Below are positions 2,418 through 45,527 of a DNA stretch of 64,000 nucleotides, piece by piece. The stretch's first letter is position 1; the number at the start of each line of letters is the position of its first letter. The translations under genes and the position numbers were made by a program. The notes under the pieces are model-generated. The model was not told where the DNA came from, searched no databases, and saw only the letters and a program-made list of their open reading frames with translations. Origin of the DNA: a virus; the IMG/VR virus record IMGVR_UViG_3300035190_000444, positions 1 through 64,000 of that record, one strand, 5' to 3'.

Positions 2418-3290
2418 ATGAGAATACAAGAATTAATGGAGGCTAAAGCCGAAGACGTTATTGAACAAATACGTTGGAATGCTGCAGAGCTTGAAAAAAT
2501 ATTTTTGGTAGAATTACCGCATATTTACAACAAATATAAAGAAAAATTAACAGTTAGTGATGATGCTGATGAAGTAGAACGCGGATTGGTAAAAAACTAC
2601 CATGCAGCATTTAGAAGTGAAATTGCTAGACCGCAAAGCATGTGGTTTAAAGACAAATACATGTCAGTATCTGCACGATCTCATTTTGGCCAAGAAGTAG
2701 CAAGAGATGGATTAAAAAATGGGTTATCACAACTAGCAGAAATGGGTGCATTTCGCAATGTGCCATTTTTGAAAGAGCTAGCACACTTGCCAGTACTGAT
2801 GGATCCAAAAACCGGCGGACCAGATACTGCATCATCTAAATTAATGGGCGAAATTGTTTCTAAACTTCCAGAAGTTTTATTTAATATTGGAAGAATAGCA
2901 AATAACAAACGAGTATTTGAATTAGGAAAATCATTAGCTAACAGTATAAAATCATGGGATAAACTATATTCAACTGTACAAGCTGCTCCAACAAGTTCTA
3001 TCAAATTTAAAAAGAAAGGTGATGCTTATATTTCTAATAAGACTAATCCAAATAAAGATGCCTGGAAATCTAATAGTGACATTGTTAAAAGTACTAAGAA
3101 ACCTGTAAAACATGATACACATGCACAAAATATGTCACAAGTGGATGTACTTATCAATCATGCATTATCGCAACTTGATTCAAAAACTGCACATGAAATT
3201 AGAACGGTAATTGCACGAAGTGATAATAAACTAATGGCAATGTCCCAAGAACTTCATAAACGTAATATTCAAATGGAATCAATGTACTAA
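2418..3290 (+). CDS. Putative internal head protein with capsid-targeting-like N-terminus
   Basis: 290 aa, not recognised. The N-terminus MRIQELMEA matches the tag shared by many proteins in this window; L6-M7-E8 followed by A9 would be a T4 gp21-type cleavage site. The body is largely helical and hydrophilic, with a basic Lys/Asn-rich stretch at about residues 190-235. Shine-Dalgarno AAAAGG precedes the ATG, and an intrinsic terminator follows the stop. It is an isolated rightward gene among leftward ones. Packaging into the head is inferred from the tag only. Confidence 0.65.
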   Translation: MRIQELMEAKAEDVIEQIRWNAAELEKIFLVELPHIYNKYKEKLTVSDDADEVERGLVKNYHAAFRSEIARPQSMWFKDKYMSVSARSHFGQEVARDGLKNGLSQLAEMGAFRNVPFLKELAHLPVLMDPKTGGPDTASSKLMGEIVSKLPEVLFNIGRIANNKRVFELGKSLANSIKSWDKLYSTVQAAPTSSIKFKKKGDAYISNKTNPNKDAWKSNSDIVKSTKKPVKHDTHAQNMSQVDVLINHALSQLDSKTAHEIRTVIARSDNKLMAMSQELHKRNIQMESMY

Positions 3291-3304
3291 TAAGTACTCA
3301 TAAG

Positions 3305-3329
3305 AAAAGGGCTAATTAGCCCTTTTTTT
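3305..3329 (+). terminator. Intrinsic terminator after 2418-3290
   Basis: AAAAGGGCTAATTAGCCCTTTTTTT: a GGGCTAATTAGCCC hairpin with an A-tract before and seven T after. Confidence 0.85.
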
Positions 3330-3419
3330 AACGATTGTAAATATACATAGTGACTTCAAAGCCAAAACGTAAATCAACATATGTTGGTGTTTCCCATTTC
3401 ATATCTATTACCTCCTTTT

Positions 3420-3707
3420 TTAACCTGCAAATACGTTACCACTACCAACTGCAACTTTAGATCCACATGCTACTGGATCACCTACTCGTCCGCATTGTTT
3501 ACCATTTATAAACACTTTACTGCTACCTGATGCTAATGTTGAATCATGACATGTTGGTTCTGCATTACAATGGGTAACCCAGTGATCGCCTTCACGGTGT
3601 ACTGCAATGCCGTTTACAAATACATCGCCACTTGCACTATCACTTACCCTTGCAGGCCAACTACCGTGACCTGAACATTTATCACCTAACCTTGTTACTG
3701 CTGGCAT
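3420..3707 (-). CDS. PAAR-domain spike-tip protein
   Basis: 95 aa, the whole of it PAAR-like: MPAVTRLGDKCSGHG at the start, three Gly-rich beta repeats (GDVFVNGIAVHREGD, SSKVFINGKQCGRVGD, GSGNVFAG) and spaced His/Cys residues (H14, H37, H46, C48, C53, H54) that would hold a metal at the cone tip. PAAR proteins cap the central spike (T4 gp5.4 type) and help pierce the outer membrane. The start overlaps the preceding stop by one base (TAATG). Confidence 0.9.
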   Translation of the reverse strand: MPAVTRLGDKCSGHGSWPARVSDSASGDVFVNGIAVHREGDHWVTHCNAEPTCHDSTLASGSSKVFINGKQCGRVGDPVACGSKVAVGSGNVFAG

Positions 3708-4246
3708 TAATATTCACTCCTCGAAACTGCTAATGTAAGTTGGTTAGCAAAATCGTCCCATACATTACTTACTTTTTGTGTTATTGTGTATGAATAATCA
3801 GTCTGAGTAATATGCTCTTGCTGATATGTGTAAGGCACTTGTGTAACTTCACCAGTCTCTGGATCTGTTACACTATTGTAACCAGTTTCGGTAGTATATG
3901 TTTTAATAGTTTCAGTTGTATTAACAATATAAGTAACCAACACAATACTACCAGCTTCTTTCTCCCCTTCAACTACTGTACCAATTTTACTAGGCATAAG
4001 ATCAAAATTAGAGATTGTAACTACATCAACAGAATCAACTGGTATGTATTTCCAAGTTGCTGGACTGTACATATTTTGGTATCTACCGGATATAGTAACT
4101 ACTCTAGTTGAAAATGAAACACTAACTCCGACATGTGGAAATGAAGAAGTTACTGAATTAATAACTTCATGTACGCCGCATGTTGCAGATTTTGAAAATC
4201 TTTCATTTTCGTGTATAATGCCAAAATTAGTAGTTGAAATGCCCAT
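3707..4246 (-). CDS. Putative baseplate/tail structural protein next to PAAR gene
   Basis: 179 aa, not recognised. It is beta-rich, with many Thr/Ser/Val, and has a Tyr/Thr-rich segment around residues 115-155 (TETGYNSVTDPETGEVTQVP). It is coupled to the PAAR gene by a 1-nt overlap, so a baseplate or spike role is likely. A late box CATAAATA lies only 4 nt before the ATG, so the late mRNA would be leaderless or nearly so. Confidence 0.6.
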   Translation of the reverse strand: MGISTTNFGIIHENERFSKSATCGVHEVINSVTSSFPHVGVSVSFSTRVVTISGRYQNMYSPATWKYIPVDSVDVVTISNFDLMPSKIGTVVEGEKEAGSIVLVTYIVNTTETIKTYTTETGYNSVTDPETGEVTQVPYTYQQEHITQTDYSYTITQKVSNVWDDFANQLTLAVSRSEY

Positions 4247-4250
4247 ATCG

Positions 4251-4258
4251 TATTTATG
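4251..4258 (-). promoter_or_regulatory. Late promoter box CATAAATA directly before a start codon
   Basis: Minus-strand CATAAATA ends 4 nt before the ATG at 4246. With the T4 spacing of about 6 nt from box to +1, transcription would begin at the ATG. Confidence 0.45.
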
Positions 4259-4546
4259 CTATAAAATAAGGCTAGTAGTTGCTTCGGTGTATGATTTTGC
4301 TGATTCTCTTTCAGTTGCTTCTAATACTACTACTGTAGCAGCAGCGATTTTAATTGTTTTGTCTTGATCAACAGTAAACAAATAAGGTGCCATTCCAATT
4401 CCACCTTGTGCAGCTGCTAATACACGTGGTTTTGAAACTTTAATGTATTTGTCAGTTTCTTCAACTAATGATGCAATTAGTTCTTCGCCTGAAGTAAGTT
4501 TAATTGTAACTACTTCACCTGGTGATACGCCTTTATCTATAATCAT
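4259..4546 (-). CDS. Small protein, possible Sm-like beta fold
   Basis: 95 aa. It starts KGVSPGEVVTIKLTSGEELIASLVEE, read here as G-E-V-V-T-I-K-L-T-S-G-E-E-L, the kind of strand-turn-strand seen in Sm/LSM-like domains. A hydrophobic middle (GGIGMAPYLFTVD) and a Val-rich strand (AAATVVVLEAT) follow. Similar proteins occur in marine myoviruses without known function. Its start overlaps the end of the glutaredoxin gene by 14 nt. RNA binding is only a fold-based guess. Confidence 0.55.
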   Translation of the reverse strand: MIIDKGVSPGEVVTIKLTSGEELIASLVEETDKYIKVSKPRVLAAAQGGIGMAPYLFTVDQDKTIKIAAATVVVLEATERESAKSYTEATTSLIL

Positions 4547-6983: not shown

Positions 6984-6995
6984 GCGTGTGCTCCT

Positions 6996-7547
6996 TTACA
7001 TCATAGATTCATTGATATGTTTCCAATTTATAATCTTCCACTGGTTTTCAAGATAACGTTTTTTATCCCATTGATAATCGAGAGAGTAAGAATGTTCCCA
7101 CCAATCAACTAACAATACAATGTCTTTTTTAATAGCATGATTAGTTATTGTTTTGATCTTGCCATCTTTAGCAAGATAAACCCAACCACTGCCTTGTATG
7201 CCCATTGCTACTTTTAAAAACTCTTCTTTAAACTTATCAAAAGTTTTATAATGTGTTTCAATTAAATCTAAAACTTTGCCAACTGGCTTGTTTAAATTGC
7301 CAGTTGACTCTTGATATTGTTGGAATAAGATATTGTGTAAAAATACACCTGCTTCATTAAACACAGGATCACCTTCACCTGCATTATAACGCTTTGCGTA
7401 TGTTTTAGCAAGATGTTCATAATGATAATCTAATGTTGCTTTTGATATAGCAGGGTTTAAATCATCCATTCCGTATGGTAGAGGATCTATTTTTAATGAT
7501 GCAGGTTTACCTTCAGTTATGAATTGCTTAATAAAACTATAGCTCAT
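6996..7547 (-). CDS. Iron/manganese superoxide dismutase with N-terminal extension
   Basis: 183 aa. Family motifs are LPYGMDDLNPAIS, LDYHYEHLAKTY (first ligand His), FLHNILFQQY (second His), GSGWVYLA, and DWWEHSYSLDYQ with the Asp and His ligands. It would convert superoxide to hydrogen peroxide. The normal enzyme starts a few residues before LPY; here about 22 residues precede it, and they read MSYSFIKQFITEGKP. Q-F-I-T-E-G closely resembles E-F-I-A-E-A of the T4 internal-protein targeting tag, with a possible cut after E12. It is flanked by nrdA (4-nt overlap) and the HNH gene. Confidence 0.9.
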   Translation of the reverse strand: MSYSFIKQFITEGKPASLKIDPLPYGMDDLNPAISKATLDYHYEHLAKTYAKRYNAGEGDPVFNEAGVFLHNILFQQYQESTGNLNKPVGKVLDLIETHYKTFDKFKEEFLKVAMGIQGSGWVYLAKDGKIKTITNHAIKKDIVLLVDWWEHSYSLDYQWDKKRYLENQWKIINWKHINESMM

Positions 7548-12818: not shown

Positions 12819-13154
12819 CTAATCTTTATGTTTTCTAGTACCAATTCTAGCTTTTTTAGACCATTTACTCTCAGTGTCAGTTTGCTGAGGGATCGGTTCT
12901 TGAATTGCAGTATCTGTTTTAATTGTTATGCCAAAGTCGTCATAACTAGCAACTAATTCTGGTAAAGTTGGAACTGCAAGCTGTGAATCTTCTTCCCATC
13001 TTGCTTCAAAGCTTTCTTTATCAATATGCCCACCACCTTGTGTATTGCATTCTTTACTAAGGACATCCCAACTTTGTTTAGATGCACACTCTTGATTATT
13101 TGCTGCAGATTGTAATAAATGCAGTGTACTAATCAACGGATCAATGGTTTCCAT
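12819..13154 (-). CDS. Hypothetical protein
   Basis: 111 aa, not recognised. A helical N-terminal half (HLLQSAANNQE), a low-complexity middle and a basic end (WSKKARIGTRKHKD). It overlaps the stop of the next gene upstream by one base, so it belongs to the same transcript as the 330-aa tagged protein. Confidence 0.5.
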   Translation of the reverse strand: METIDPLISTLHLLQSAANNQECASKQSWDVLSKECNTQGGGHIDKESFEARWEEDSQLAVPTLPELVASYDDFGITIKTDTAIQEPIPQQTDTESKWSKKARIGTRKHKD

Positions 13155-14146
13155 TATTTTTTTTTTGAGCTTAACATCATTCCTAATTTACGGCTATATT
13201 CGATACTTTCGCGTTTCATACGTCCTGCATCAGATGGAGGAATTCCGCCTGCTTCTGGGCCTGCTTCTGGGCCTGCTGTAGGAGCACCTGCACCTGGCAT
13301 TCCTTCTGGACCACCAAGATCTAAGTTTTCGCTACCTGTAGGAGCTACGCCTACTTGCGCAGTTTCGCCTTCAACTGGAGCACCTAACATTTCAGGTTCG
13401 TCACCTGCTACAATAGCTAGTCCTTGGTTTAAGCCTTGACGTGATTGTTCTAATGCCGAGTAAATACCATCCATTGCAGGTCTAACTACTGCATCGTATT
13501 GTTGTGCAACTTCTGGACCTGCAACACGTTTAATGTCGTCTACTAGCTCTAAAAATTGTTCTGAACGCATAGCAGCAACATCTTCTAACCAACCAGTGAT
13601 ACGTTGAACAATGTCACGTGTTTGAATAATTACATCTGCACGTTTTTCTTCGTCTTCTAACAAAATCCAACTAGCTTGTGATTCGTTTAAATCATAACGT
13701 GTTTTTAATTCTGCAGACAATTCACGACGATCTGATTCGCCTAATGAAATTCTACGGATTGCACTGTTAATCCAGCTTTCTGGAACTGACAGTTTTTCAG
13801 CACGTTGACGTAATCTAGACTGTGCATAGCCTTCGTCGGTTTTTTGTTTTTTCTTTTTAGGTTGTTCTTCTTCAACATCTACATCGTCGCAGTTTTCACG
13901 TTCAAAAATTTCTTGATTAACTACGTCAAGAAACATGCGAGTTTTTTGATAGTCAGTATTTTCAACTACAGTGCTATAACTTTCGTTCATTTCAAATTGA
14001 CTAATTTTAGTGCGTAATTTGTTACGTGCATCTTCAAGTTGTGCATCTGTAAAGTTTTCTAATTGTATTTTATAACCAAAGTTTTTAACTAAACTTTCGT
14101 TTAGTTTTGAACTAGTCATACGTTGATTTAAATCGTTAATTTGCAT
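13154..14146 (-). CDS. Tagged helical protein, possible head-core component
   Basis: 330 aa, not recognised. It begins MQINDLNQRM, a variant of the shared tag (D5-L6), with L-N-E at residues 15-17. Residues 20-240 are helical and strongly charged, including a KKKKQK stretch near 97. Residues 245-305 are a flexible Gly/Pro/Ala/Glu linker (GPEAGPEAGG). The C-terminus is basic (SSKKK). Such a layout would suit a scaffold-like or internal head protein, but this is inference. A late box lies upstream. Confidence 0.5.
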   Translation of the reverse strand: MQINDLNQRMTSSKLNESLVKNFGYKIQLENFTDAQLEDARNKLRTKISQFEMNESYSTVVENTDYQKTRMFLDVVNQEIFERENCDDVDVEEEQPKKKKQKTDEGYAQSRLRQRAEKLSVPESWINSAIRRISLGESDRRELSAELKTRYDLNESQASWILLEDEEKRADVIIQTRDIVQRITGWLEDVAAMRSEQFLELVDDIKRVAGPEVAQQYDAVVRPAMDGIYSALEQSRQGLNQGLAIVAGDEPEMLGAPVEGETAQVGVAPTGSENLDLGGPEGMPGAGAPTAGPEAGPEAGGIPPSDAGRMKRESIEYSRKLGMMLSSKKK

Positions 14147-14175: not shown

Positions 14176-14183
14176 TATTTATA
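14176..14183 (-). promoter_or_regulatory. Late promoter box TATAAATA
   Basis: A perfect minus-strand TATAAATA about 29 nt before the ATG at 14146. Confidence 0.55.
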
Positions 14184-14622
14184 TAAATGACTGACGAAAT
14201 AATTTCAAAATCATTTGTTGATATTGATTTGAAAGAGCATTGCTTTCTTCTAATCGTGTTAGCATTATATGATATTTTTCGTCGTCTGTTACTAAACTTA
14301 TATTATTTTTAAATACAATTGCATCATTAGCTACTGATGCATATTTACTATCGAGTAACTTGACTGAATGATATTTTTCGTAATGTCTATGATTGTATTC
14401 CTTAGCAGCGATCAATGCACAGCTTTTAAGATAATACTCATTAATTAAATCTTTTGACTCTATATTATACACGCCCCAGTATGTATTGTCAAGTTGTTTA
14501 ACTAAGAATTTTTTATATAATAGTGAGCCGTCTGGTAACACAGAAATTGGTAATGTAGTCTGTAATTCGTGATCAAAGTATTCAGCAAACTTTTTAATTA
14601 CTTTAGACTGTTGATTTTTCAT
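14179..14622 (-). CDS. Hypothetical protein
   Basis: 147 aa, not recognised. A mixed protein with a possible beta sheet in residues 25-70 (LPDGSLLYKKFLVKQLDNTYWG) and a helical C-terminal half. It overlaps the upstream 69-aa gene by 20 nt and its 3' end overlaps the late box of the next gene. Confidence 0.5.
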   Translation of the reverse strand: MKNQQSKVIKKFAEYFDHELQTTLPISVLPDGSLLYKKFLVKQLDNTYWGVYNIESKDLINEYYLKSCALIAAKEYNHRHYEKYHSVKLLDSKYASVANDAIVFKNNISLVTDDEKYHIMLTRLEESNALSNQYQQMILKLFRQSFI

Positions 14623-14812
14623 TTATAACTACCGTTGGATTATTAAATCCAATTTTTTTTACTAAACTTTTACGAATCATAGTTTCAACTACACATTGAT
14701 CATGGTCAGATAGTTGAGAAAATTTAATCGGATATTTTAATTTTCCTAATAACTGTTTTTCTTCATTAGTAATAAAAATTTTAAAATCAGATATAAGTTC
14801 GTTTATTTTCAT
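14603..14812 (-). CDS. Small tagged protein
   Basis: 69 aa. It starts MKINELISDF, matching the M-K-x-x-E-L tag, but no L-x-E cut site follows within 15 residues. The rest is a short basic alpha/beta sequence. It overlaps the upstream gene by 4 nt (ATGA). Confidence 0.5.
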   Translation of the reverse strand: MKINELISDFKIFITNEEKQLLGKLKYPIKFSQLSDHDQCVVETMIRKSLVKKIGFNNPTVVINEKSTV

Positions 14813-15465
14813 CTTAAACCTGCAATTGTTAACATTGCAATTAGTTCTTCTGATTCATGTACTTGTGTATGTTTTTCTTTGCGAATACTTTTTCCTGCAT
14901 GTTTTTCAAAATCATGATCAGTTACATCGTCAATAAAATCATCAGTTTTGTCACCACCATTAGGTCCGCCAATTGGATCGTTGTGTTTAGATTTCATTAA
15001 ATCACGATCATTAAACTTTTCTGCTAGTTTAATTTCAGCACCAACTTGTGGGGGTTTAGGTGGTTGCTGTCCATTTGCAGGTTGTTGTGCAGTCTGTTGT
15101 CCGTTTGCAGGTTGTTGTCCATTTGCAGGTTGTTGTCCATTTGCAGGTTGTTGTGTACTTGTATCTTGTGCAAATGGTACAGGTTGTTGTGTAGTAGAGT
15201 CTTGTGCAATTGGTGCAGGCGGCTGAGTAGTTTGTCCAGTAGGAGCAACTCCCTCGGGTGCTTGTGCAGGTTGTGATGTAGGTTGACCAGGCAATGCTGT
15301 TGCAATAGTATATTTACTAGGGTCAGTTTGATCAGGTTGCAATTGATTAAGTGGCATTGTTATTTTAAGGTCTGGGTTATTAGGGTCAACTAACTCTGCA
15401 CCTTTAGTTGGGTCAATGCTTGCAATTTTATAATTCTCTTTTAACGTAATTTCTTTAATCTTCAT
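14809..15465 (-). CDS. Tagged Gln/Pro-rich repeat protein
   Basis: 218 aa. The tag is MKIKEITLKEN (L8-K9-E10, then N). Residues 60-145 are low-complexity, with ANGQQP units repeated in tandem and A-P-I-A-Q-D-S-T-T type repeats; the DNA shows matching 18-nt repeats near 15070-15160. The C-terminus is charged. Probably an extended, disordered internal or linker protein. It overlaps its neighbours on both sides (4 and 11 nt). Confidence 0.55.
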   Translation of the reverse strand: MKIKEITLKENYKIASIDPTKGAELVDPNNPDLKITMPLNQLQPDQTDPSKYTIATALPGQPTSQPAQAPEGVAPTGQTTQPPAPIAQDSTTQQPVPFAQDTSTQQPANGQQPANGQQPANGQQTAQQPANGQQPPKPPQVGAEIKLAEKFNDRDLMKSKHNDPIGGPNGGDKTDDFIDDVTDHDFEKHAGKSIRKEKHTQVHESEELIAMLTIAGLR

Positions 15466-16162
15466 TCTGTTCTCCTAGGCTAAGTGCCGAGCTTTGTAAT
15501 TTGTTTATATGGTTGCGTAATTTATCAATCTTACCATGTGCGCGTAGTAATTTAAATGCTAGATTCTCTACACTAAACTCGCCCACATCATCTAACCCTG
15601 ATTTTCGTAATCGTTTAATGTTATCCATTGTATCTTTAGCTAACTTTAATTTAGATGATTTTAATGCTTGATTAATTTGCCCTACGTAATTACGAGCTTT
15701 ATCGTTTACTTCTTGTTCGCTTACTCTAGGTGTTTGATGTTTTGGTTCTTTAATCCATTTGTCATTTACGATACTATAAATGCCTGCAGATTCATGATGT
15801 TGGTTAGTATCTTGTACATACAGCTCAACATCAATGTTTTTAATTTTTATATTGTATGTAAAGTTGTATTGATTCTTTTTAGCATCATATAATTCAACTA
15901 GTTCTGGTTTATCGCTAGGGATATCTACTACAAGGTGCAAGTCTATATCTGAAAACTCAGAATATCCATAACTTGCATTACTTCCGCTAATAGTAATATC
16001 TTTTAAATGTATTGACTGTACATTTAAAAATTCTGTAAAATTCCTAGCGATAAGCAGTAACTGGTAACGTATCTCAGTTTTTAATTGATCATTTGCCCAA
16101 AGTAATGGATTCAGTGTTTCTTGAAATGGTATTGATTGGACAGATAATTCGTTAAATCGCAT
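15455..16162 (-). CDS. Tagged nucleotidyltransferase-like protein
   Basis: 235 aa. It begins MRFNELSVQS. Residues 55-80 hold the nucleotidyltransferase signature G-S-N-A-S-Y-G-Y-S-E-F-S-D-I-D-L-H-L: a Gly-Ser turn then D-x-D metal ligands; a third acidic residue is probably in NIDVELYV. Family members transfer nucleotides to proteins, RNA or small molecules; the target is unknown. The C-terminal 90 residues are helical. If packaged, it could modify a host factor on entry. Confidence 0.72.
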   Translation of the reverse strand: MRFNELSVQSIPFQETLNPLLWANDQLKTEIRYQLLLIARNFTEFLNVQSIHLKDITISGSNASYGYSEFSDIDLHLVVDIPSDKPELVELYDAKKNQYNFTYNIKIKNIDVELYVQDTNQHHESAGIYSIVNDKWIKEPKHQTPRVSEQEVNDKARNYVGQINQALKSSKLKLAKDTMDNIKRLRKSGLDDVGEFSVENLAFKLLRAHGKIDKLRNHINKLQSSALSLGEQNED

Positions 16163-17754: not shown

Positions 17755-18156
17755 TTATTCCACAGCTTGTTGTTTAAATAAATTAGGGTGCATTTTACCC
17801 CATTTACGCATGATAACAGCAGCTTGCGCATTTGCTTCGTTTTCATGATCGCTCCCATCGTTGCCACTGTCTGGAGTTAACTCATTGTTTAAGTCTTGTC
17901 TATAATGCACAAGCTCATGTGCTAACGTTCTACATACATCCATAATATGTCTATTAGATAAGGTAACAGTTATATGTTTATCACCGTATCCGCCAAATGA
18001 TCTAAATTCTACACTACGATCGTTACCGTCTTGCATTTCGATATTTGGTAATTCTTGTAAACCTAATTCAGAAGATGCAAATTTAATAAATTTACTAATT
18101 ATATTAGTAGCGTTATTGCGAGATAACCCTTCTGTTAATATTTCATGTACTTTCAT
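17755..18156 (-). CDS. Tagged zinc metallopeptidase-like protein (HExxH)
   Basis: 133 aa. The tag MKVHEILTEG has L7-T8-E9 before G10. Residues 75-85 hold LAHELVHYRQ, a canonical H-E-x-x-H zinc site, and a downstream E-N-E-A-N-A could supply the third ligand (SprT/WSS-like arrangement). Family members cut proteins, often DNA-bound ones. The short length leaves room for little more than the catalytic fold. If the tag is cleaved the enzyme would be in the head and enter the host with the DNA. Confidence 0.7.
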   Translation of the reverse strand: MKVHEILTEGLSRNNATNIISKFIKFASSELGLQELPNIEMQDGNDRSVEFRSFGGYGDKHITVTLSNRHIMDVCRTLAHELVHYRQDLNNELTPDSGNDGSDHENEANAQAAVIMRKWGKMHPNLFKQQAVE

Positions 18157-27725: not shown

Positions 27726-28022
27726 TTATTTTCGAATAAGTTCTAGTATTCTTTTTAATTGATTAGTATGATCAGACACATCATCGTCAGTGGTGTCTTC
27801 TTCGGCGCCAACATCTTCAGGTTCTGTTATTTTATCAATTACTGCGCTGTCTTTGCCAGCATCAGCTTTTTTAAGTTCTAACTCTTGTTGTAACGGCGAT
27901 ACGAAGATTGGGTTTTCGTCGGGTTCTTCTGAATCGTTGCCTGCAACATCGATCTCAGGATCTCCGTCACCGTTTATTTTAATGTTTATTGGCACATTGA
28001 TTGTAAATTCTTTTGCTCTCAT
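27726..28022 (-). CDS. Small acidic tagged protein
   Basis: 98 aa from ATG 28022 (Shine-Dalgarno AAAGGA). It starts MRAKEFTINVPI, matching the M-R-x-x-E-F tag but lacking a nearby L-x-E. The rest is acidic (PEIDVAGNDSEEPDENP, then EPEDVGAEEDTTDDDVSD) and ends with a basic helix (LKRILELIRK). Not recognised. Confidence 0.5.
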   Translation of the reverse strand: MRAKEFTINVPINIKINGDGDPEIDVAGNDSEEPDENPIFVSPLQQELELKKADAGKDSAVIDKITEPEDVGAEEDTTDDDVSDHTNQLKRILELIRK

Positions 28023-30151: not shown

Positions 30152-30412
30152 CTATGTAGTCCAAGGCCGGCCAACAACAAGTCCGCCTACATTAGGATTG
30201 TCAGTAATTCCGTCACCGTTATATTTTGTTGGTAATTGCGTAATATCATAATTGTTTCTATCACGATAGTATTGTTTAGTAGGATCTATACTTCCAGTAA
30301 CTGTACCATCAGCTGCTACAGTTTTACCTTGACGTTTAGCTTTTGCTAACGCAAGTTTAGCTGCTTGTTTTGCTTCTTTGGTTGATAACCATGCGATTCC
30401 GTTAGCTGACAT
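30152..30412 (-). CDS. Conserved small structural-region protein
   Basis: 86 aa. A basic Ala/Lys helix (TKEAKQAAKLALAKAKRQGK) is followed by YYRDRNNYDITQLPTKY and GLVVGRPWTT. The second block matches a conserved protein found beside structural genes of marine myoviruses, function unknown. It overlaps the stop/start of its neighbour by one base. Confidence 0.6.
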   Translation of the reverse strand: MSANGIAWLSTKEAKQAAKLALAKAKRQGKTVAADGTVTGSIDPTKQYYRDRNNYDITQLPTKYNGDGITDNPNVGGLVVGRPWTT

Positions 30413-30786
30413 TATTGCCCCCTCATTGCTTTAATCATTACAATATGTTCAGGATGATCGTCTGTTGGTTCAAATTCTGTATCAATTAAATGCGGATACG
30501 CACTTGGATCTTTAACTCGTATATCAGCAGGATGTTTTGGACCATTCATTCCGCCACCTGCATGTATTGTAACTGAATCTAAATCTGCATACGCCGGATT
30601 AGGTTCATTAATAAATCTGTGTCTTTCTGGACTATCTGCCAAATCAACAATTTGCTTAAATCTGTTAATGTCATCACCTGCTGTTACTTTATGATCAGGT
30701 TTAAGTATAAACTCTGGTTCAATGGGTTCTTGTTCTCCGCCATCAATCAAGTTTAACATGTTTCTAATAATATCTTGAACTCTCAT
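30412..30786 (-). CDS. Tagged hypothetical protein
   Basis: 124 aa. The start [10 protein letters not shown] is a D5-I6 variant of the shared tag. The body contains [16 protein letters not shown] and a His/Gly stretch ([13 protein letters not shown]). Not recognised. Good Shine-Dalgarno (GAGGACAC) and a late box upstream. Confidence 0.5.
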
Positions 30787-35131: not shown

Positions 35132-36100
35132 TTATGCTTGGTAATGTTTAAAATAGTCAATTACGTCACCTTTAGTGTAGTAATCGCGTCCTTGAGCAGC
35201 TGCCCATTTTGCAAATGGAGGGTTATCTTTCCATAATTCATTTTTTGAAATGTTAATGTTAGGTGCTAGTCTGCCGCCGCCTTTTTGACCAATTACAGTG
35301 TTTCGATCTTTATTCTTAGCCCACGGCACAAATGTAAGCATATAAATTTCACCTTGAGTCATTCCTGGTTGTACACCTACTTTCTTATAGTATTTGTAAA
35401 CTAAATCCATTTGTGAAATTGCATCCATTTTTCTAATAGTTGATCTTGGAATACCAACTGTATCATCATGACAGAATTGTATTAATCCAACACACCCGTT
35501 ATCGTTAATTGCAGTTGGCTTTAATCCGGATTCGTGTTGCATAATTTTCATTAAAATATTTGGGTCAACACCTAACTTACTTGCAACTTCGTCTACCTTT
35601 GCTAAAAATTTAGAATCTGTTGCAAGTTTAGATGTTGATTTAACTGGTTTAATTTTTTCAGTGCCATGCTGGTTAGTTACAGGTATGTTACTTACTATGT
35701 TGTTAGCAGGTGGCGTACTGCTAGCCACGTTACTAGCAGGAGCAGCTCCAGCAATTGCTGGAGCAACTGCACCTGCTAATTTATCCGAATCAGATTTTGC
35801 GGATTTCATTGCATTTGCAATATAGTCAGATAACCCAGGAATTGATGGTATTGACATATTTAATGCGCTAATAAAATTAGAATCAGGTTTGCCTGTAACT
35901 GTTAATCCAAAATTTTGTTGTGCAGCTGCAATTGCTTTCATAGTACGTTCGTCGACTATGCTAGTATCATGTACATCATAATTAAGTGCAGCTAATGCTT
36001 TTTGCATTGCAGATACAATCTTGCTCCGATATGGACCAGGCACAGGAATTTCTAATGTTCCAATGTTTTCATTTAATGGTTTAAATTCTAAAAATCTCAT
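35132..36100 (-). CDS. Tagged lytic transglycosylase with peptidoglycan-binding domain
   Basis: 322 aa. The tag MRFLEFKPLNEN has L9-N10-E11. Residues 25-85 form a PG_binding_1 domain (AMQKALAALNYDVHD, DERTMKAIAAAQQNFGLTVTG). An Ala/Pro linker follows to about 150. The transglycosylase domain (about 165-320) has the catalytic Glu in MKIMQHESGL and GLIQFCHD. A head-packaged or tail-released wall hydrolase that opens peptidoglycan during entry fits both tag and domains. Confidence 0.85.
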   Translation of the reverse strand: MRFLEFKPLNENIGTLEIPVPGPYRSKIVSAMQKALAALNYDVHDTSIVDERTMKAIAAAQQNFGLTVTGKPDSNFISALNMSIPSIPGLSDYIANAMKSAKSDSDKLAGAVAPAIAGAAPASNVASSTPPANNIVSNIPVTNQHGTEKIKPVKSTSKLATDSKFLAKVDEVASKLGVDPNILMKIMQHESGLKPTAINDNGCVGLIQFCHDDTVGIPRSTIRKMDAISQMDLVYKYYKKVGVQPGMTQGEIYMLTFVPWAKNKDRNTVIGQKGGGRLAPNINISKNELWKDNPPFAKWAAAQGRDYYTKGDVIDYFKHYQA

Positions 36101-36108
36101 AAGGGTTC

Positions 36109-36441
36109 CTACGAATAGTCAGGTAACGGACCGCCGTATTTAGAACTTTTAACTGTTTTACCATCAAGTTTAACACGTTTTTTACCAATCTTTTGCGATT
36201 TGCCAGTTTTACGAGCCATAAAGCCTTGTGCTTTACAACTTGATTCGTCACTAGCACCTTTTTTCTTATTACTTAGACATAGTTCTTTACTAGCTTTGCC
36301 ACGTTCGTCTAAATGTGTATCAGCAGTTACTTTATATCTAGATTCGGCTGCATGCCCGCGAGCAGGACGATCACTTTTACGCCCTGGACGTTTAGCACTA
36401 GTGCCAATTTTTTCTTCTTTAATAAACTCTTGAGCTCTCAT
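36109..36441 (-). CDS. Small very basic tagged protein
   Basis: 110 aa from ATG 36441 (AGGA 7 nt before). The tag MRAQEFIKEE has I7-K8-E9, close to T4 E-F-I-A-E. The rest is strongly basic (KRPGRKSDRPARGH, KKKGASDESSC, GKSQKIGKKRVKLDGKTVKSS). It is a good candidate for a DNA-associated internal head protein. The 80-aa protein at 45285-45527 has a comparable layout. Confidence 0.65.
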   Translation of the reverse strand: MRAQEFIKEEKIGTSAKRPGRKSDRPARGHAAESRYKVTADTHLDERGKASKELCLSNKKKGASDESSCKAQGFMARKTGKSQKIGKKRVKLDGKTVKSSKYGGPLPDYS

Positions 36442-39143: not shown

Positions 39144-39151
39144 TATAAATA
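39144..39151 (+). promoter_or_regulatory. Perfect late promoter box TATAAATA
   Basis: TATAAATA 28 nt before the ATG of the amidoligase-like gene, placing it in the late class. Confidence 0.65.
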
Positions 39152-39179: not shown

Positions 39180-40706
39180 ATGCGTTATACAGAATTCAAA
39201 CCGTTACTCAATGAAGTAAACATGAGTCCGGGTTCTCTACAAAATTGGTTACAAGGTCCTGCATCTGCAGGTATGACTATGGGATTTGAAGCAGAAATGT
39301 GCGTACCATGTCAAAATATGCCGCCAATGGTAGATGACATTGAAAGCATTATTGAATTCTTTGGTAACGGTGATCCTAAGTTAGAAATTAAAATAGGTAA
39401 AGCATTAGCATCTGCATATAAGCATTGGGTTACTGCAAAATATAACAAATACCTTAAGGATAACCCCGACTTTAAATACGATGTAGAAGAACGTGTATTT
39501 AAAGAACTATCTAAAGAATACGGTGAAGACGAAGCATATCAAATGATTGATTATGCAACTGATGAATACACCGCAGAATACGAAAGAGTAATTGCCGAAC
39601 ATAAAAAATATTTCTTTAAAATGAAAATTCATTCAACATCATATTGGTTATCATCATTAGATGTTAATAATATGTTAGATATTGCAGGATTAGACATAGG
39701 CGGTAAACAAGAGCTTGAATTACCTCCTGAATATAATCCGTTGACAAATTTGCTTGATGGGTTTAAGAAAGCAGTTAAAACAGATGTTGTTCAAAGTAAT
39801 TTAATTTATCACGGAGTTGAACGGTCTGCAGCTAGTTATGAAAATTGGATTATTGAACCAGATGTTACTATACAACCAGCTAAAGGGCAAGCAGCAGTTG
39901 GATTAGAATTTATTAGTCCTGCTAAACCAATTGCTGAAACATTAGCTAACTTAGAAAATACAGTTGCATGGGCTAATGCATATGGATGCACCACAAATGA
40001 ATCCACTGGATTGCATGTAAATGTTTCTATTCCAGACTTTGATCGGTCTAAACTTGACTATATTAAATTAGCGTTGTTCTTAGGTGATGAGTATATTTTA
40101 AGTCAATTTAATCGTTTATATAACTCGCAATGTGATAGTGTGTTACGATCATTAAGAAACGATCCAGAGCGATTTGATGTTTCTGATGAAAATGGATCTA
40201 TGTTGTTAAATCAAATGCGTCAGAACATGACTACACGAGTAAGCCAGTTCTTTCATAATAGTATTACCGATAAGTATGTGTCAATCAATGCTAAGGAAAA
40301 TTGGGTAGAGTTTCGTGGACCAGGTGGTAATTATTTAAAACACGATATTAGATCGTTAATCAGTGTTGCAATACGTACTGCAATGGCATTACAAATTGCA
40401 TGTAATGAACAGTTATATAGAAAAGAATACCTTAGAAAACTATACACATTAGTTAATCCAGAGTTAGGAACAAGTGCAGTTGAACTGTTTGCAAAATCAG
40501 CAGCTAATGAGTTAAACAAATCAGAATTAAAATCATTATTGAAAGATTTGAAAAAGGTAAAAGAAATAGAAAAACAATATGTAGCGCCTACTGTAGATCC
40601 TGCAAAACCTATTTCTAAAAAGCCATTACCTGTATATAACAAACCAGCTGTGCAACAACCAATTGAACCGCAAGTAGTTACTCCAGAAGATATAACGGAA
40701 TACTAA
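39180..40706 (+). CDS. Tagged amidoligase-like enzyme
   Basis: 508 aa. The tag MRYTEFKPLLNEV has L10-N11-E12. The middle fits the putative amidoligase (COOH-NH2 ligase, glutamine-synthetase fold) pattern: T-M-G-F-E-A-E-M early, W-I-I-E-P-D-V-T-I, VGLEFISPAKP, a helix with L-x-N-T-V-A-W-A, and ESTGLHVNVSIP carrying the His. Such enzymes join amines to carboxylates, for example on peptides or glycans. The C-terminus is a Pro/Val-rich tail. Late promoter and AAAGGAA Shine-Dalgarno. Substrate unknown. Confidence 0.72.
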   Translation: MRYTEFKPLLNEVNMSPGSLQNWLQGPASAGMTMGFEAEMCVPCQNMPPMVDDIESIIEFFGNGDPKLEIKIGKALASAYKHWVTAKYNKYLKDNPDFKYDVEERVFKELSKEYGEDEAYQMIDYATDEYTAEYERVIAEHKKYFFKMKIHSTSYWLSSLDVNNMLDIAGLDIGGKQELELPPEYNPLTNLLDGFKKAVKTDVVQSNLIYHGVERSAASYENWIIEPDVTIQPAKGQAAVGLEFISPAKPIAETLANLENTVAWANAYGCTTNESTGLHVNVSIPDFDRSKLDYIKLALFLGDEYILSQFNRLYNSQCDSVLRSLRNDPERFDVSDENGSMLLNQMRQNMTTRVSQFFHNSITDKYVSINAKENWVEFRGPGGNYLKHDIRSLISVAIRTAMALQIACNEQLYRKEYLRKLYTLVNPELGTSAVELFAKSAANELNKSELKSLLKDLKKVKEIEKQYVAPTVDPAKPISKKPLPVYNKPAVQQPIEPQVVTPEDITEY

Positions 40707-42022
40707 TGTTATTAAGGGAATTATTTTTAGTTGACGGCTATAAAGAAGCTCAAGCAGAGTTTTCAAAGTTAGGAAGACCGGAAAGTGTAAAAGATATGAT
40801 TAGCAAGTTTAGACAGCTTGTTGATCGCAATCAAGTACAAGGTGAACAACGTAATATTGATGCATGGCGTAAAAAAGGCTGGTTTGAATTTCAAAGATTT
40901 GTATTTGATAAATCACAAGAACAAAGTAAAACACAGAAAAAGAAATTAGTAAAAAAAGAACAAGATTCAGTAACTGTGTATGATCATAATAACATTACTG
41001 GAGTTATGCCATTAAACAAAAATGCTAGCGTTAACATTGGTAGACATAGTGATTGGTGTACTACTAAAGCAGAACAGCAGCATTGGGAAGAATACACCGG
41101 AAAAGGTGTAGTTCTAATTTATTGTTTCCTTAATTATCGAGGCGACGGTGACGGTGATGACAGGTGGGCAATTGCATTTTACAGAAATCAACCAAATAGT
41201 TTTGAATTGTTTACTGGCGCTGATGATAAAATGTCCAACGAGCAGTTTTTAGAAGAAACTGGAGTAGCAGCAACTGATATCATTCGTGCTGCGCTTGCTA
41301 ATCCTAATATTGATAATGTTGAATCAGAACCGCCTAAAGAACAAAAACCAACAACATATCTTGATACAATTGCTGATATGTTGACAATTAATCAACATAA
41401 CTATCGTGGTAAACGTAATCCAGAAATTGAATATGCGTTGCTTAATTTCTTTGATAGAAATCATAATGCATATTCTATAAATGATGAATATTCAGGAAGA
41501 AGTTTTAAGAGATTACTTAGAACGTATACTGCAGATATTAAACCAGCAGATATGAAAGAGATGGATATTCTATTTCAAACAGATTACTTGCAAGTGCATC
41601 CTGATTTTATAAAGCATATTAGTAATCCAACAGATCAACAGATCAAGGCTGCAGTTAGAGGTAACCCAAGACTTATTAAAAAAATACCAAATCCATCGAG
41701 AGAGCAAATTGAAATGGCAATATGGACATATCCTAAAATATTTTATGATATTAGTGAAAATCCTATTGCACAAGATGTTTATGCTGATATGGTAATATCA
41801 TCAAAAAATGGAGTACAAACTTTATTTAACGCATTAAATCCCCAAACACTTGATCCAAGTGTTGAGATGAAACTTGCAAAAGCATTCCCGTATAACATGC
41901 ATATGCTAGGGTACCTTAGACCAGAAACAATTGAATATATAAAAGCAACTAATCCTAGAGATTTACAATTTGTTAAAGGTCAAAACATAAATGGTGTCTT
42001 GCAACCATTTACCCAAACTTAA
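40706..42022 (+). CDS. Tagged large protein with D-W-C-T-T motif
   Basis: 438 aa, not recognised. MLLRELFLVDGY keeps E5-L6. Residues 95-165 contain NIGRHSDWCTTKAEQ, then GVVLIYCFLNY and RWAIAFYRNQ, an arrangement seen in uncharacterised phage proteins. The C-terminal third has helical repeats (HPDFIKHISNPTDQQIKAAVRGNPRLIKKI in part: ISNPTDQQIKAAV, IPNPSREQIEMAI). It overlaps the amidoligase-like gene by 1 nt and shares its late promoter, so both are probably co-packaged. Confidence 0.6.
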   Translation: MLLRELFLVDGYKEAQAEFSKLGRPESVKDMISKFRQLVDRNQVQGEQRNIDAWRKKGWFEFQRFVFDKSQEQSKTQKKKLVKKEQDSVTVYDHNNITGVMPLNKNASVNIGRHSDWCTTKAEQQHWEEYTGKGVVLIYCFLNYRGDGDGDDRWAIAFYRNQPNSFELFTGADDKMSNEQFLEETGVAATDIIRAALANPNIDNVESEPPKEQKPTTYLDTIADMLTINQHNYRGKRNPEIEYALLNFFDRNHNAYSINDEYSGRSFKRLLRTYTADIKPADMKEMDILFQTDYLQVHPDFIKHISNPTDQQIKAAVRGNPRLIKKIPNPSREQIEMAIWTYPKIFYDISENPIAQDVYADMVISSKNGVQTLFNALNPQTLDPSVEMKLAKAFPYNMHMLGYLRPETIEYIKATNPRDLQFVKGQNINGVLQPFTQT

Positions 42023-42579: not shown

Positions 42580-42586
42580 AAATTCC

Positions 42587-42594
42587 TATAAATA
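42587..42594 (+). promoter_or_regulatory. Perfect late promoter box TATAAATA
   Basis: TATAAATA 18 nt before the ATG of the kinase-like gene. Confidence 0.6.
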
Positions 42595-42612
42595 TATTAA
42601 ATTGGGCACAAC

Positions 42613-43329
42613 ATGAAAATTAAAGAATTATTAAGTGAAATAAAATTTAAACCACGTATATCAAATAAATCTACTAGTGGTGTAATACAGTCACCTAAGT
42701 TGCAATTTATTGCAGCTGGATGTCAAGCAATCGCATACTATCATAAAACACATCCTAATACAGTAGTTAAAGTAGCTGCAGTATCGGGAGAGGATGATCC
42801 AATATGGCAGTTCTTACGGGTATGTATTAATCATCCTAACAACCCATATTTCCCAAAAGTATTTAATCATAAAGTGTTTAACTTAAAAAATATAACACCT
42901 GAAGAAGAAGATTATTTAGAAACACACCCTGAATTTGAATATCTTCCAATACACGATAATAGAAAATTGCAAATCTTAATAGTAACCGAGCGACTACAAG
43001 AAACTGACGCTGATCAGTTTGAAGCAGTGTTAAAACAGCTTGGATTACTCGAGTATATTACACGTTACCAATCAGGACTAAAACCTATCGCAAGACACCC
43101 TATTACAACAGAATTTGCATGGGCGCACATGATGGATACTCCAAAGTTCCGTCGTGATATACGAAACCTTGCGACTGATAAACATTTTAAAGATGCGATG
43201 AGATTGCTTGAACCATTGTTTGCGCATGCAGGGTTTTATGCAGATGTCCATCTTGCTAACATGATGTCACGCCCTAATGGACATCTAGTGTTTAATGATC
43301 CGTTAGCAATTGCGTTATCAGTGGACTAA
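42613..43329 (+). CDS. Tagged protein-kinase-like protein
   Basis: 238 aa. The tag MKIKELLSEI has L7-S8-E9. The rest looks like a compact kinase fold: a Gly/Ala loop (FIAAGCQAIAYY), a Lys strand (TVVKVAAVS), a hinge-like LQILIVTERLQE, and a catalytic-loop-like GFYADVHLANMMSRPNGHLVFNDPLA, where D-x-H-x-x-N and N-D-P stand for HRD-N and DFG. Whether it phosphorylates proteins is unknown. Late expression plus tag suggest it enters the host in the virion. Confidence 0.62.
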   Translation: MKIKELLSEIKFKPRISNKSTSGVIQSPKLQFIAAGCQAIAYYHKTHPNTVVKVAAVSGEDDPIWQFLRVCINHPNNPYFPKVFNHKVFNLKNITPEEEDYLETHPEFEYLPIHDNRKLQILIVTERLQETDADQFEAVLKQLGLLEYITRYQSGLKPIARHPITTEFAWAHMMDTPKFRRDIRNLATDKHFKDAMRLLEPLFAHAGFYADVHLANMMSRPNGHLVFNDPLAIALSVD

Positions 43330-43557: not shown

Positions 43558-43565
43558 TATATCTC

Positions 43566-43829: not shown

Positions 43830-44112
43830 AATCGTATTCAGTCCATGTGTTATTTTTGTAACTCCAATGTCTACTATCGTACATGTTTATGTTTAATTCA
43901 AAACATAATAATCCAATGCGTAAACATGGACCTGCGTGATCAGACCCCCATAAGTGTGTGCCTAGTTCAAACCCTGCTATAATATCTTTATTAAATATAC
44001 CTTCTATTTCCCAGTGTTTGTGTTTAGTAAACGATCCATGCAAGTTAAACAGATCACGAAATCCATTGTGTGTTACAAATGGATTAGTTACTCCTATACT
44101 TATTTCAAGCAT
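43822..44112 (-). CDS. Hypothetical protein
   Basis: 96 aa from ATG 44112, which has AGGAG 6 nt before it. Aromatic and His-rich (GSFTKHKHWEIEG, THLWGSDHAGP). Not recognised. First gene of a three-gene leftward unit under a consensus sigma70 promoter. Confidence 0.5.
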   Translation of the reverse strand: MLEISIGVTNPFVTHNGFRDLFNLHGSFTKHKHWEIEGIFNKDIIAGFELGTHLWGSDHAGPCLRIGLLCFELNINMYDSRHWSYKNNTWTEYDYE

Positions 44113-44142
44113 TGTTGCTCCTGTAGTTAAAAATGTTTGCAT

Positions 44143-44171
44143 ATTATAAACTATTATATACAGTGTGTCAA
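44143..44171 (-). promoter_or_regulatory. Perfect-consensus leftward sigma70 promoter
   Basis: Minus strand TTGACA (44171-44166), 17 nt, TATAAT (44148-44143), 30 nt before the ATG at 44112. Confidence 0.85.
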
Positions 44172-44205
44172 GCAAATAAATACAGTTGTTACACTACGAG
44201 GACAT

Positions 44206-44370
44206 ATGAAACCAAAACTCTTTAAACAAAACAATACCTGGTACTGCAAACTAGGACAAACCCTAGGTCAAGGCCAATCACCTAAACGCGCTTACACAAA
44301 CTTTTACACACTATATAATAAGTGTAAAGTTGTTATTTCAGACGACTTAATACATTATTATAAACAATGA
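44206..44370 (+). CDS. Small basic protein
   Basis: 54 aa, MKPKLFKQNNTWYCKLGQ onwards, with a G-Q-S-P-K-R-A-Y segment and LIHYYKQ end. GAGGAC precedes the ATG and AATAAATA (late-type) lies about 25 nt upstream. The layout (W-Y-C-K-L-G ... G-x-S-P-K-x-A-Y) suggests a double-stranded-RNA-binding-like or single-strand-binding beta hairpin, but this is weak. Confidence 0.5.
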   Translation: MKPKLFKQNNTWYCKLGQTLGQGQSPKRAYTNFYTLYNKCKVVISDDLIHYYKQ

Positions 44371-44439
44371 TTACGATAATGTAATAATGTTAGCTTGATT
44401 GTTTACTAAATGTAGATAGTCATTTTACTGTTTAGCTAC

Positions 44440-44468
44440 TTGTTTTTCATGTTAAAATAGCATAAAAT
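44440..44468 (+). promoter_or_regulatory. Possible sigma70-type promoter (TTGTTT-17-TAAAAT)
   Basis: Weak match 33 nt before the 51-aa gene. Confidence 0.35.
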
Positions 44469-44500
44469 ACTATGTAGACATTAACAAAGGAGACTACACT

Positions 44501-44656
44501 ATGATTAACACTATTACAACTTACACTGCTTCACGAAGTACAAACGACATCTTAATTGACGTATTGCATGTTGCAAGCGTAGTATGTTTTGCAACACTAG
44601 TATGGGTAATGTTCTGCGGATACATTATAACACCTCCAGTCTGGTGGCATGCGTAA
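44501..44656 (+). CDS. 51-aa membrane protein
   Basis: MINTITTYTASRSTND, then one span (VLHVASVVCFATLVWVMFCG) and TPPVWWHA. AAAGGAG lies 8 nt before the ATG and a strong terminator follows, so this is a separate short transcription unit. Short phage membrane proteins of this kind often modify host envelope or respiration, but nothing specific is recognisable. Confidence 0.65.
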   Translation: MINTITTYTASRSTNDILIDVLHVASVVCFATLVWVMFCGYIITPPVWWHA

Positions 44657-44668
44657 TCCAATCCAGTA

Positions 44669-44707
44669 GCCTGCGCATACTACAATACTTGCGCAGGCAC
44701 TTCTTTC
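44669..44707 (+). terminator. Strong hairpin terminator
   Basis: A perfect 9-bp stem GCCTGCGCA (44669-44677) / TGCGCAGGC (44690-44698) with a 12-nt loop, followed by ACTTCTTTC. The U-run is imperfect. Confidence 0.6.
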
Positions 44708-44721
44708 AAGTCAGTTGACTT
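44708..44721. promoter_or_regulatory. Operator-like palindrome over a -35 box
   Basis: AAGTCAGTTGACTT: 6-bp arms AAGTCA/TGACTT overlapping TTGACT of the promoter at 44715-44743. A repressor could bind here. Confidence 0.35.
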
Positions 44722-44743
44722 GTCCTACACAACTTGTTATACT
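44715..44743 (+). promoter_or_regulatory. Sigma70 promoter of the first mini-DUF1566 pair
   Basis: TTGACT (44715-44720), 17 nt, TATACT (44738-44743), 32 nt before the ATG at 44775. Confidence 0.7.
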
Positions 44744-44774
44744 TTATTAAATTAAATTAACTTATAAGTATAAT

Positions 44775-45035
44775 ATGAGCATTGAAATATCCCCAAAAGA
44801 CTATTGGAAAGCAATGTGCCGAGATGAAGCACAGATGTATTGTTTATTCTTAGTAATAGACGGCAAGAAAGGATGGCGATTCCCTACTTATCGAGAATTA
44901 ATTGGACACGAGTCTACATATCATATAAGTATGTTAGGAGAATGGTATGAAGACGATTTAGTTGATACTAATTTATGCGATACTGACGATTTGTACTGTA
45001 TAGTACCAGTAAGGGATAGAAAAGATGACGATTGA
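44775..45035 (+). CDS. Mini-DUF1566 paralogue 1
   Basis: 86 aa. The family core is RDEAQMYC (16-23), an LVIDGKKGWRFPT segment (26-38), a Trp/Asp-rich variable middle and a terminal IVPVRD. This core equals the start (WDEA-YC, GWRLPT-EL) and end (VR) of DUF1566/Lcl C-terminal domains, a C-type-lectin-like fold, with most of the usual Y-W-S-S ... A-W ... G middle removed. No signal peptide or membrane segment. Twenty-one such genes lie between here and 61.8 kb. Role unknown. Confidence 0.75.
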   Translation: MSIEISPKDYWKAMCRDEAQMYCLFLVIDGKKGWRFPTYRELIGHESTYHISMLGEWYEDDLVDTNLCDTDDLYCIVPVRDRKDDD

Positions 45036-45276
45036 AATTTCACCAAGAGAAACATGGAAAAAACCACTTCCAAAAGATCAAGCACAAATGTATTGTTTAT
45101 TTTTTGAACACAACGGCAGAGGGTGGAGATTTCCTACTCTAGAAGAATGTCTAACTAACATGAGTGGAATTCCAACGATTGTTGGATGGTGTTGGAACAA
45201 AGAACGCATGGAAAGTGATGATTATAATACTGCAATTTGTGACGTAATTCTAGTTCGAGATGTTAAAAATGCATAA
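45025..45276 (+). CDS. Mini-DUF1566 paralogue 2
   Basis: 83 aa. It shares the N-terminal ten residues pattern with paralogue 1 (IEISPRETWKKPLPKDQAQMYC) and has GRGWRFPTLEE. The middle is W-rich (VGWCWNKERM). The end, VILVRDVKNA, follows the family ending. Overlaps paralogue 1 by 11 nt; the pair looks like a direct duplication. Confidence 0.72.
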   Translation: MTIEISPRETWKKPLPKDQAQMYCLFFEHNGRGWRFPTLEECLTNMSGIPTIVGWCWNKERMESDDYNTAICDVILVRDVKNA

Positions 45277-45279
45277 ATA
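45272..45279 (+). promoter_or_regulatory. Late-type box CATAAATA 5 nt before an ATG
   Basis: CATAAATA overlaps the stop of paralogue 2 and ends 5 nt before ATG 45285, which would give a leaderless late mRNA. Confidence 0.45.
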
Positions 45280-45284
45280 GTTTT

Positions 45285-45527
45285 ATGAAAATAGAAGAAC
45301 TTTTAAACGAACTAACCTTTCACGGCTCGCAATGCACTAAAGACTGTAGCGGACATCGCGCAGGATGGTCATGGGGTAAAAAGTATCCCAATCGTGCTAC
45401 TACTAACAGAGCTACTCATCAAAGTTTCAACAATGGTGTTGATATTGCTAATGCTAATACCAAAGTCGTTATGATGCCAAATGCACGTGGTGCAGGTGGT
45501 AAGTTTGTTAAGAAGCCTAAACCATAA
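45285..45527 (+). CDS. Small basic tagged protein
   Basis: 80 aa. The tag MKIEELLNEL has L7-N8-E9. It then reads SQCTKDCSGHRAGWSWGKKYP, a basic His/Cys/Gly part, Asn/Thr-rich repeats and a C-terminus GAGGKFVKKPKP. No Shine-Dalgarno but a late box 5 nt before the ATG, unlike its early-promoter neighbours: a late internal-protein gene embedded in the early region. Confidence 0.62.
   Translation: MKIEELLNELTFHGSQCTKDCSGHRAGWSWGKKYPNRATTNRATHQSFNNGVDIANANTKVVMMPNARGAGGKFVKKPKP

Follow-up and report, generated by a model that had tools for sequence, protein, structure and literature searches.

An N-terminal tag on unrelated late proteins of T4-type jumbo phages and its likeness to the capsid-targeting sequences of T4

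Tagged genes in the window

We have analyzed a window of 64,000 nt from a virus record of 88,585 bases (IMG/VR IMGVR_UViG_3300035190_000444), in which 179 genes were called with one gene caller throughout. The left part of the record (<45.6 kb) is rich in fibre and enzyme genes, and the next 43 kb contain small early-type genes; the labels late and early are used here on the basis of gene content and late promoters. Fourteen genes of the left part encode proteins that begin with a common tag, M[KRQL]xx[ED][LIF], as predicted originally from the window: all 14 starts are real open reading frames (ORFs) at the positions named, and all match the pattern. They are listed in Table 1, together with one further candidate and three late promoters; for minus-strand genes the start number used in the original prediction is the right-hand (5') end. 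Past the tag the bodies share nothing, as had been claimed, the 14 of them forming 14 separate homology clusters.

Table 1. Tagged genes, a candidate member and T4-type late promoters in the window.
Feature	Coordinates	Strand	N-terminus	Length (aa)	Evidence or remark
Tagged protein, unknown body	2418..3290	+	MRIQELME/AK	290	Tag kept in two long relatives
Fe/Mn superoxide dismutase, candidate 15th member	6996..7547	-	MSYSFIKQFITE/G		Pfam; N-terminal extension of ~16 aa
Tagged protein	13154..14146	-	MQINDLNQ...KLNE/S	330	Conserved in 79 loci
T4-type late promoter TATAAATA	14176..14183	-			29 nt before tagged gene 13154-14146
Tagged protein	14603..14812	-	MKINELISD	69	No LxE near tag
Tagged protein	14809..15465	-	MKIKEITLKE/N	218	Repetitive Q/P-rich body
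Tagged nucleotidyltransferase-like protein	15455..16162	-	MRFNEL	235	GSNASYGYSEFSDIDLHLVV motif, read directly
Tagged HExxH metallopeptidase-like protein	17755..18156	-	MKVHEILTE/G	133	Conserved motif and fold
Tagged protein	27726..28022	-	MRAKEFTINVP	98	No LxE near tag
Tagged protein	30412..30786	-	MRVQDIIRN	124	CATAAATA 18 nt upstream
Tagged SLT transglycosylase with peptidoglycan-binding domain	35132..36100	-	MRFLEFKPLNE/N	322	Pfam PF01471, PF01464
Tagged small basic protein	36109..36441	-	MRAQEFIKE/E	110	
T4-type late promoter TATAAATA	39144..39151	+			28 nt before tagged amidoligase gene
Tagged amidoligase-like protein	39180..40706	+	MRYTEFKPLLNE/V	508	Pfam PF12224
Tagged protein	40706..42022	+	MLLRELF	438	phrog_17056/28193 (function unknown)
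T4-type late promoter TATAAATA	42587..42594	+			18 nt before tagged kinase-like gene
Tagged kinase-like protein	42613..43329	+	MKIKELLSE/I	238	phrog_15752, E=3e-5
Tagged protein	45285..45527	+	MKIEELLNE/L	80	

The 14 matches among 179 genes compare with a mean of 2.2 and a maximum of 8 in 2000 shuffles of the N-terminal columns, and with 1.7 expected from the internal methionines of the same proteins. We sharpened the pattern to M-[KR]-[IVLAF]-x-[ED]-[LIFM], hereafter the strict tag, which is found on 11 genes of the record and at none of 322 internal methionines. Chance and composition were rejected as sources of the tag by the column shuffles and the internal-methionine control, and the observation is stronger than first stated. 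The distribution of the tag is also markedly uneven. It occurs on 14 of the 72 genes left of 45.6 kb and on none of the 107 genes between 45.6 and 88.6 kb of the same record (Fisher p=1.3e-6); equal frequency in early genes, named in advance as a result that would speak against a packaging role, is thus not what we find.

The tag was also said to be followed closely by LxE or IxE. This holds for 10 of the 14 proteins, which have a hydrophobic-x-E within residues 6-25 (ending at residue 15 in the 15455 gene and at residue 17 in the 13154 gene), and fails for the genes at 14603, 27726, 30412 and 40706, which have none in that interval. Within residues 6-11 the site is present in 7 of 14 tagged and 16 of 165 untagged genes (p=4e-4). 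The list of 14 genes is probably incomplete, the superoxide dismutase gene being a candidate fifteenth member. In its product the Pfam Sod_Fe_N domain begins at residue 19, and the preceding extension, with a FITE resembling that of the T4 internal proteins, is conserved in relatives, although the homologue in Vibrio phage 2.275 has no extension. The homologue in phage PA5oct carries an extension reading ISIAE/A and is marked as detected in virions.

The description of the tagged bodies as an enzyme set proved to be overstated, since about half of the 14 have no enzyme assignment and are small, disordered or unassigned. What stands are the transglycosylase and amidoligase, supported by Pfam, the kinase-like protein, supported by PHROG, and the HExxH protein, supported by motif and fold; the nucleotidyltransferase is suggested by its motif, with a match to phrog_36119 that starts at residue 13. 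Across 21 orthologous HExxH proteins no variation is seen at E5, E9 and G10, although residues 3, 4 and 11-22 vary. Its predicted structure has residues 1-8 disordered, followed by a folded metallopeptidase-like domain with IrrE/SprT/selecase-like matches, of which matches to viral proteins alone pass E 0.001. The kinase-like protein has a weak match, from residue 34 on, to the T7 gp0.7 protein kinase family, and its tag is kept in two relatives. A single-sequence structure prediction for this protein was uninformative (pLDDT, the predicted local distance difference test score, of 40), so that the kinase assignment comes from the PHROG match, and a sequence search of the PDB with it gave nothing useful. 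The 13154-14146 protein, whose LNES is kept in all five genomes, is probably a head-core or structural protein and not cargo. Polyvalent proteins combine several effector domains in one large polypeptide that is injected; the bodies in the window have one or two domains, and domains related to its metallopeptidase and amidoligase occur fused in other phages. Comparison of the DNA of window positions 20-44 kb with known phages gave no match, nor did tblastn searches of known phages with two of the tagged proteins.

The tag in related phages

The 13154-14146 protein was used as a lead to relatives and identified 79 loci in viral contigs from the environment; some of these loci lie on records that are 259-372 kb long. 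Four long relatives (G001, G002, G003 and G004) were read whole, and the sequence of phage Phosso was read to 300 kb only. The major capsid proteins (MCPs) of the long relatives are 66-70% identical to those of Phosso, Vibrio phage 2.275, GAP32, CBB and PA5oct, which makes the clade a branch of the T4-type jumbo phages; metagenomic origin and the lack of isolates suggest that it is a freshwater branch. The strict tag occurs on 25, 23, 14 and 12 genes of G001, G002, G003 and G004, respectively, where the internal-methionine control expects 0.2-1.1. Over 84 related loci it is found on 176 of 1853 genes, versus 1.2 expected. An unsupervised search for N-terminal residue triples returned the combination of a basic residue 2, an acidic residue 5 and a hydrophobic residue as the top signal or among the top signals in the four long relatives, and as the top signal in PA5oct. 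Tagged genes tend to adjoin one another.

The 186 distinct tagged proteins fall into 43 body clusters. Two main spellings of the tag, MRAxEF(I/L)xE and MK(I/V)xE(L/I)(L/I)xE, are both found on homologous bodies. A [LIVMF]xE within residues 6-10 is present in 108 of the 186 tagged proteins (58%) versus 212 of 2454 untagged proteins (9%), and the residue after the E is most commonly G, A or N. Tagged bodies in the relatives include a HicA toxin domain, a GNAT-like protein, an M23 peptidase, a phage tail lysozyme with LysM, and a GH19 domain; there are also weak matches to cell-wall hydrolase and HAD domains, as well as DUF4116 and DUF6267. The tagged HicA domain (L099:6143-6382 in G001 and 276173-276415 in G002) is a possible packaged mRNA interferase. 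A tagged protein of G003 (L114:9311-10402) contains a GRFNPPHKGH motif that is NMN adenylyltransferase-like, with a sub-threshold Pfam match, and may be an injected NAD enzyme. In two tiny tagged proteins (G001 171343 and G004 167906) the segment after the predicted cleavage point, [AT]AGATS[SA]ANIGTV, copies the N-terminus of the mature MCP.

Head and late-expression machinery

The original prediction called for a gp21-like protease beside the tag. Five relatives encode an S77 prohead protease, its gene lying, as in T4, between a scaffold-like gene and the side of gp67 and the portal; none was found in the window's own 88,585-base record, which is a fragment without head genes. The MCPs of the relatives start ...TRKYL[MLV]ES-P-[TS]-AGATSAG, with LxE at the place of the cleavage site in T4 gp23, and by this likeness they would be cut at LxE/S. 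In seven jumbo phages the gene right after the portal gene, which is the position of T4 gp67, has a tag-like leader (for example MILRELF, MKLVELF, MKINDIITEG, MKLTELF or MRYNEF) followed by a common body of TRK/LTLR/LNxLRK type. The PA5oct protein encoded at this position was detected by mass spectrometry (MS).

A gp55-like late sigma factor is present in four relatives. Of 101 tagged genes, 14 have the T4-type late promoter TATAAATA in the 70 nt before the gene, versus 27 of 1631 other genes (p=2e-8). Promoter enrichment and the sigma factor of the relatives together indicate that the tagged genes belong to the predicted late class.

Virion proteomes of related phages

The GenBank record of PA5oct marks the virion proteins found by electrospray ionization tandem MS (ESI-MS/MS). 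Of its six proteins with the strict tag, five are marked, versus 86 of 325 others (p=0.007).

Agrobacterium phage Atu_ph07 spells the tag differently. Fourteen of its proteins start M[KR]Wx[QED][LIFMT]x[EDS], and among them are ten paralogues, nine in tandem, with bodies that are 16-39% identical to the first and in which M1, W3, Q5, L6 and E8 are invariant. The paralogues also keep a Y-R-G and a late E, which is an ADP-ribosyltransferase-like pattern at the level of the motif. This tandem M[KR]WxQLxE array with YRG...E, at 39484-50592 (L209, L210), is annotated as hypothetical. The YRG...E pattern, together with one weak ART-PolyVal match on another tagged protein, suggests that the array is ADP-ribosyltransferase-like; Pfam gave no match for the array members tested, and a PDB sequence search with the array gave nothing useful. 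By record order, anchored on the gp70 primase/helicase, most array members are coding sequences (CDS) 53-63 and lie inside the cluster of CDS 31-76, which accounts for 29 virion proteins detected by MS, a figure for the cluster as a whole (PMC6102473). Two genes from its portal gene, Atu_ph07 also encodes a differently tagged amidoligase with 30% identity over 245 aa to that of the window. The virion list of CBB (PMC5259590) is uninformative, because CBB has hardly any tags.

Likeness to T4 and other phages

The leaders in the T4 record, MKTYQEFIAE (IPII and IPIII), MELITELFDE (Alt) and MAKINELLRE (gp24), are similar in shape to the tag, although the acidic residue is usually one position earlier in the jumbo phages. 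Like the T4 internal proteins IPI, IPII and IPIII and like Alt, the tagged proteins have a short leader on unrelated bodies and a hydrophobic-x-E site, and there is an S77 protease, gp21 in T4; the gp55/TATAAATA late class is shared with the internal proteins as well. The capsid-targeting sequences (CTSs) of T4 are leaders of 10-20 residues common to unrelated proteins, with [LI]xE at the leader end and an S77 prohead protease. Leaders of this kind are present here, with the [LI]xE overall, save in the four window genes named above, and with the protease in the five relatives. The resemblance is closest for the gp24 propeptide, MAKINELLRE/S, in which KINELLRE almost reproduces the tag form KIxELLxE, and the prohead core protein gp67 has its counterpart in the tagged gene at its position. 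Whereas gp24 and gp67 are assembly proteins, the same leader is here spread over many bodies, and the 11-25 strict members per genome compare with four or so in T4. The bodies also differ, many of them having enzyme domains, and PHROG and Pfam scans gave, for the tagged window proteins that they covered, no match to the IPI/IPII/IPIII or Alt families.

In T4, the CTS leader alone is enough to package foreign proteins (PMC3012670, PMC5694885), and the internal proteins are injected anti-restriction proteins (PMC12373910). The giant phages SPN3US and phiKZ, of another phage lineage, make head proteins that carry cleavable propeptides, and they eject proteins as a bolus (PMC5694885), but their propeptides are mostly >100 residues long, with A-x-E sites and no common short leader. 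The Rak2-like and allied T4-type jumbo phages GAP32, CBB, PA5oct, Atu_ph07 and Phosso have MCPs that are 64-75% identical and the same head gene order; PA5oct has its six strict tags and Atu_ph07 its own spelling, M[KR]WxQLxE.

Interpretation and alternatives

We consider it quite probable that the tag is a CTS of the T4 kind, with late synthesis, core binding, cleavage at LxE and delivery with the DNA. Capsid targeting by the tag is well supported by the comparison with about ninety related sequences and two virion proteomes; core binding, an interior location, cleavage, injection and action in the host are suggested by analogy with T4 (PMC3012670, PMC5694885, PMC9391042, PMC12373910). The tagged proteins would be made late from T4-type late promoters, and the tag would bind the scaffold core inside the growing prohead. 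Where [LI]-x-E follows the tag, the S77 prohead protease would cut after the E during maturation, leaving the body, without its tag, with the packaged DNA. Some tagged proteins are probably parts of the head core and would act in assembly; other bodies would be ejected together with the DNA and be active at time zero in the next host. Candidates for delivery in the window are the transglycosylase, superoxide dismutase, kinase-like, peptidase-like and amidoligase proteins and the nucleotidyltransferase, and in the relatives the proteins with HicA, GNAT, M23, tail-lysozyme, GH19 and HAD domains. Late synthesis of a kinase of the T7 gp0.7 type would hardly benefit the infection in which it is made, which fits delivery to the next host. 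Of the packaged and injected cargo originally proposed, the targeting tag, the late genes, the protease in relatives and the PA5oct virion data speak in favour, while the enzyme set must be reduced.

Several observations weigh against this interpretation. The broader pattern M[KRQL]xx[ED][LIF] is not significantly enriched among PA5oct virion proteins (4 of 8 marked, p=0.22). Over the whole of the PA5oct MS data, MS-positive and MS-negative proteins are not separated by a graded tag score. Probable contaminants from the cytosol (NrdA, NrdB and thymidylate synthase) are among the proteins marked in PA5oct, and six tagged proteins are few. For the clade itself, presence in virions is suggested only by proxy, from PA5oct and the Atu_ph07 cluster; likewise the protease is known from the relatives, the window's own record lacking the head genes. 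Four of the 14 window tags have no nearby LxE site, and several bodies are murein hydrolases that could equally well be tail or lysis proteins. Finally, CBB and Vibrio phage 2.275 have only ~3 strict tags each, so the expanded system is not general.

Three other explanations were considered. The leader might bind the core for head assembly only, the tagged proteins being scaffold or core components or passively trapped, and then degraded, expelled or inert rather than effectors. The gp67-position protein and the conserved 13154-14146 protein do resemble core parts, and several tagged bodies are small or disordered, but many others are enzyme or toxin domains without an assembly role that vary between genomes and are freely swapped, and T4 proteins with the same kind of leader are injected (PMC12373910, PMC9391042); we regard this explanation as unlikely. 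Somewhat less likely still is that the tag docks proteins on another part of the virion, such as the tail, baseplate or whiskers, instead of the capsid interior. Many tagged genes of the window sit among fibre-like genes, several bodies are murein hydrolases of a type that is usually tail-borne, and the PA5oct MS data do not distinguish head from tail. Nevertheless, the LxE site matches that of the MCP and the protease acts in proheads, while a head gene, at the gp67 position, is tagged in seven phages and the leaders resemble those of T4 gp24 and the internal proteins.

A preference for certain codons at translation initiation (A-rich starts), combined with chance, could also generate similar N-termini, and AGA is indeed favoured at codon 2 (0.81 versus 0.37 genome-wide). 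The other tag codons follow the genome average, and one tag peptide has many DNA spellings. Selection therefore appears to act on the peptide, and a translation-start artefact was rejected as the source of the tag by this codon test. As early genes of the same genome are untagged and E5, E9 and G10 are invariant among diverged orthologues, we find this last explanation barely credible.

Returning to capsid targeting, the T4 internal proteins make this kind of system already known; the scale and the variety of enzymes appear to be new. In the open-licence full texts searched we found no description of so many tagged proteins, of such enzymatic variety among them or of the exchangeable spelling. 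A more far-reaching proposal, for and against which we see about equal grounds, is that a clade-wide, exchangeable N-terminal address loads 20-30 unrelated proteins per head, many of them enzymes (murein hydrolases, superoxide dismutase, kinase-like proteins, metallopeptidases, amidoligase, and HicA and GNAT domains), for delivery to the next host as a time-zero effector arsenal, and that sister lineages use other spellings, such as the M[KR]WxQLxE of the ADP-ribosyltransferase-like array in Atu_ph07. If so, the virion cargo of these phages could be read from the genome by a sequence rule, and dozens of unknown late proteins would become candidate injected effectors or counter-defence proteins. 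The T4 internal-protein system, known with four or so proteins per phage, would then comprise several times as many cargo proteins, enzymes included, and the tag would provide a signal for delivering proteins into bacteria. Many of the "structural proteins of unknown function" in the proteomes of jumbo phages would also be explained in a simple way.

Other features of the record

From 44775 to the end of the window at 64000, and in the record up to 83.9 kb, small ORFs belonging to a single family follow one another in tandem, several dozen in all. Their motif, ...DEAxxYCxTxxHNxKYDWRxPT / GKKGWRLPT, appears DUF1566-like by eye, and many of the ORFs overlap start to stop with a common CCAGTGAGAGAT junction. 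Between 60 and 88 kb of the record (L001, L002), a repeated leader around TTTGCTATAATATG...GGAGCG..ATG precedes many early genes, for example those at 67097, 67461, 68079 and 68501, and is perhaps a conserved early promoter and leader.

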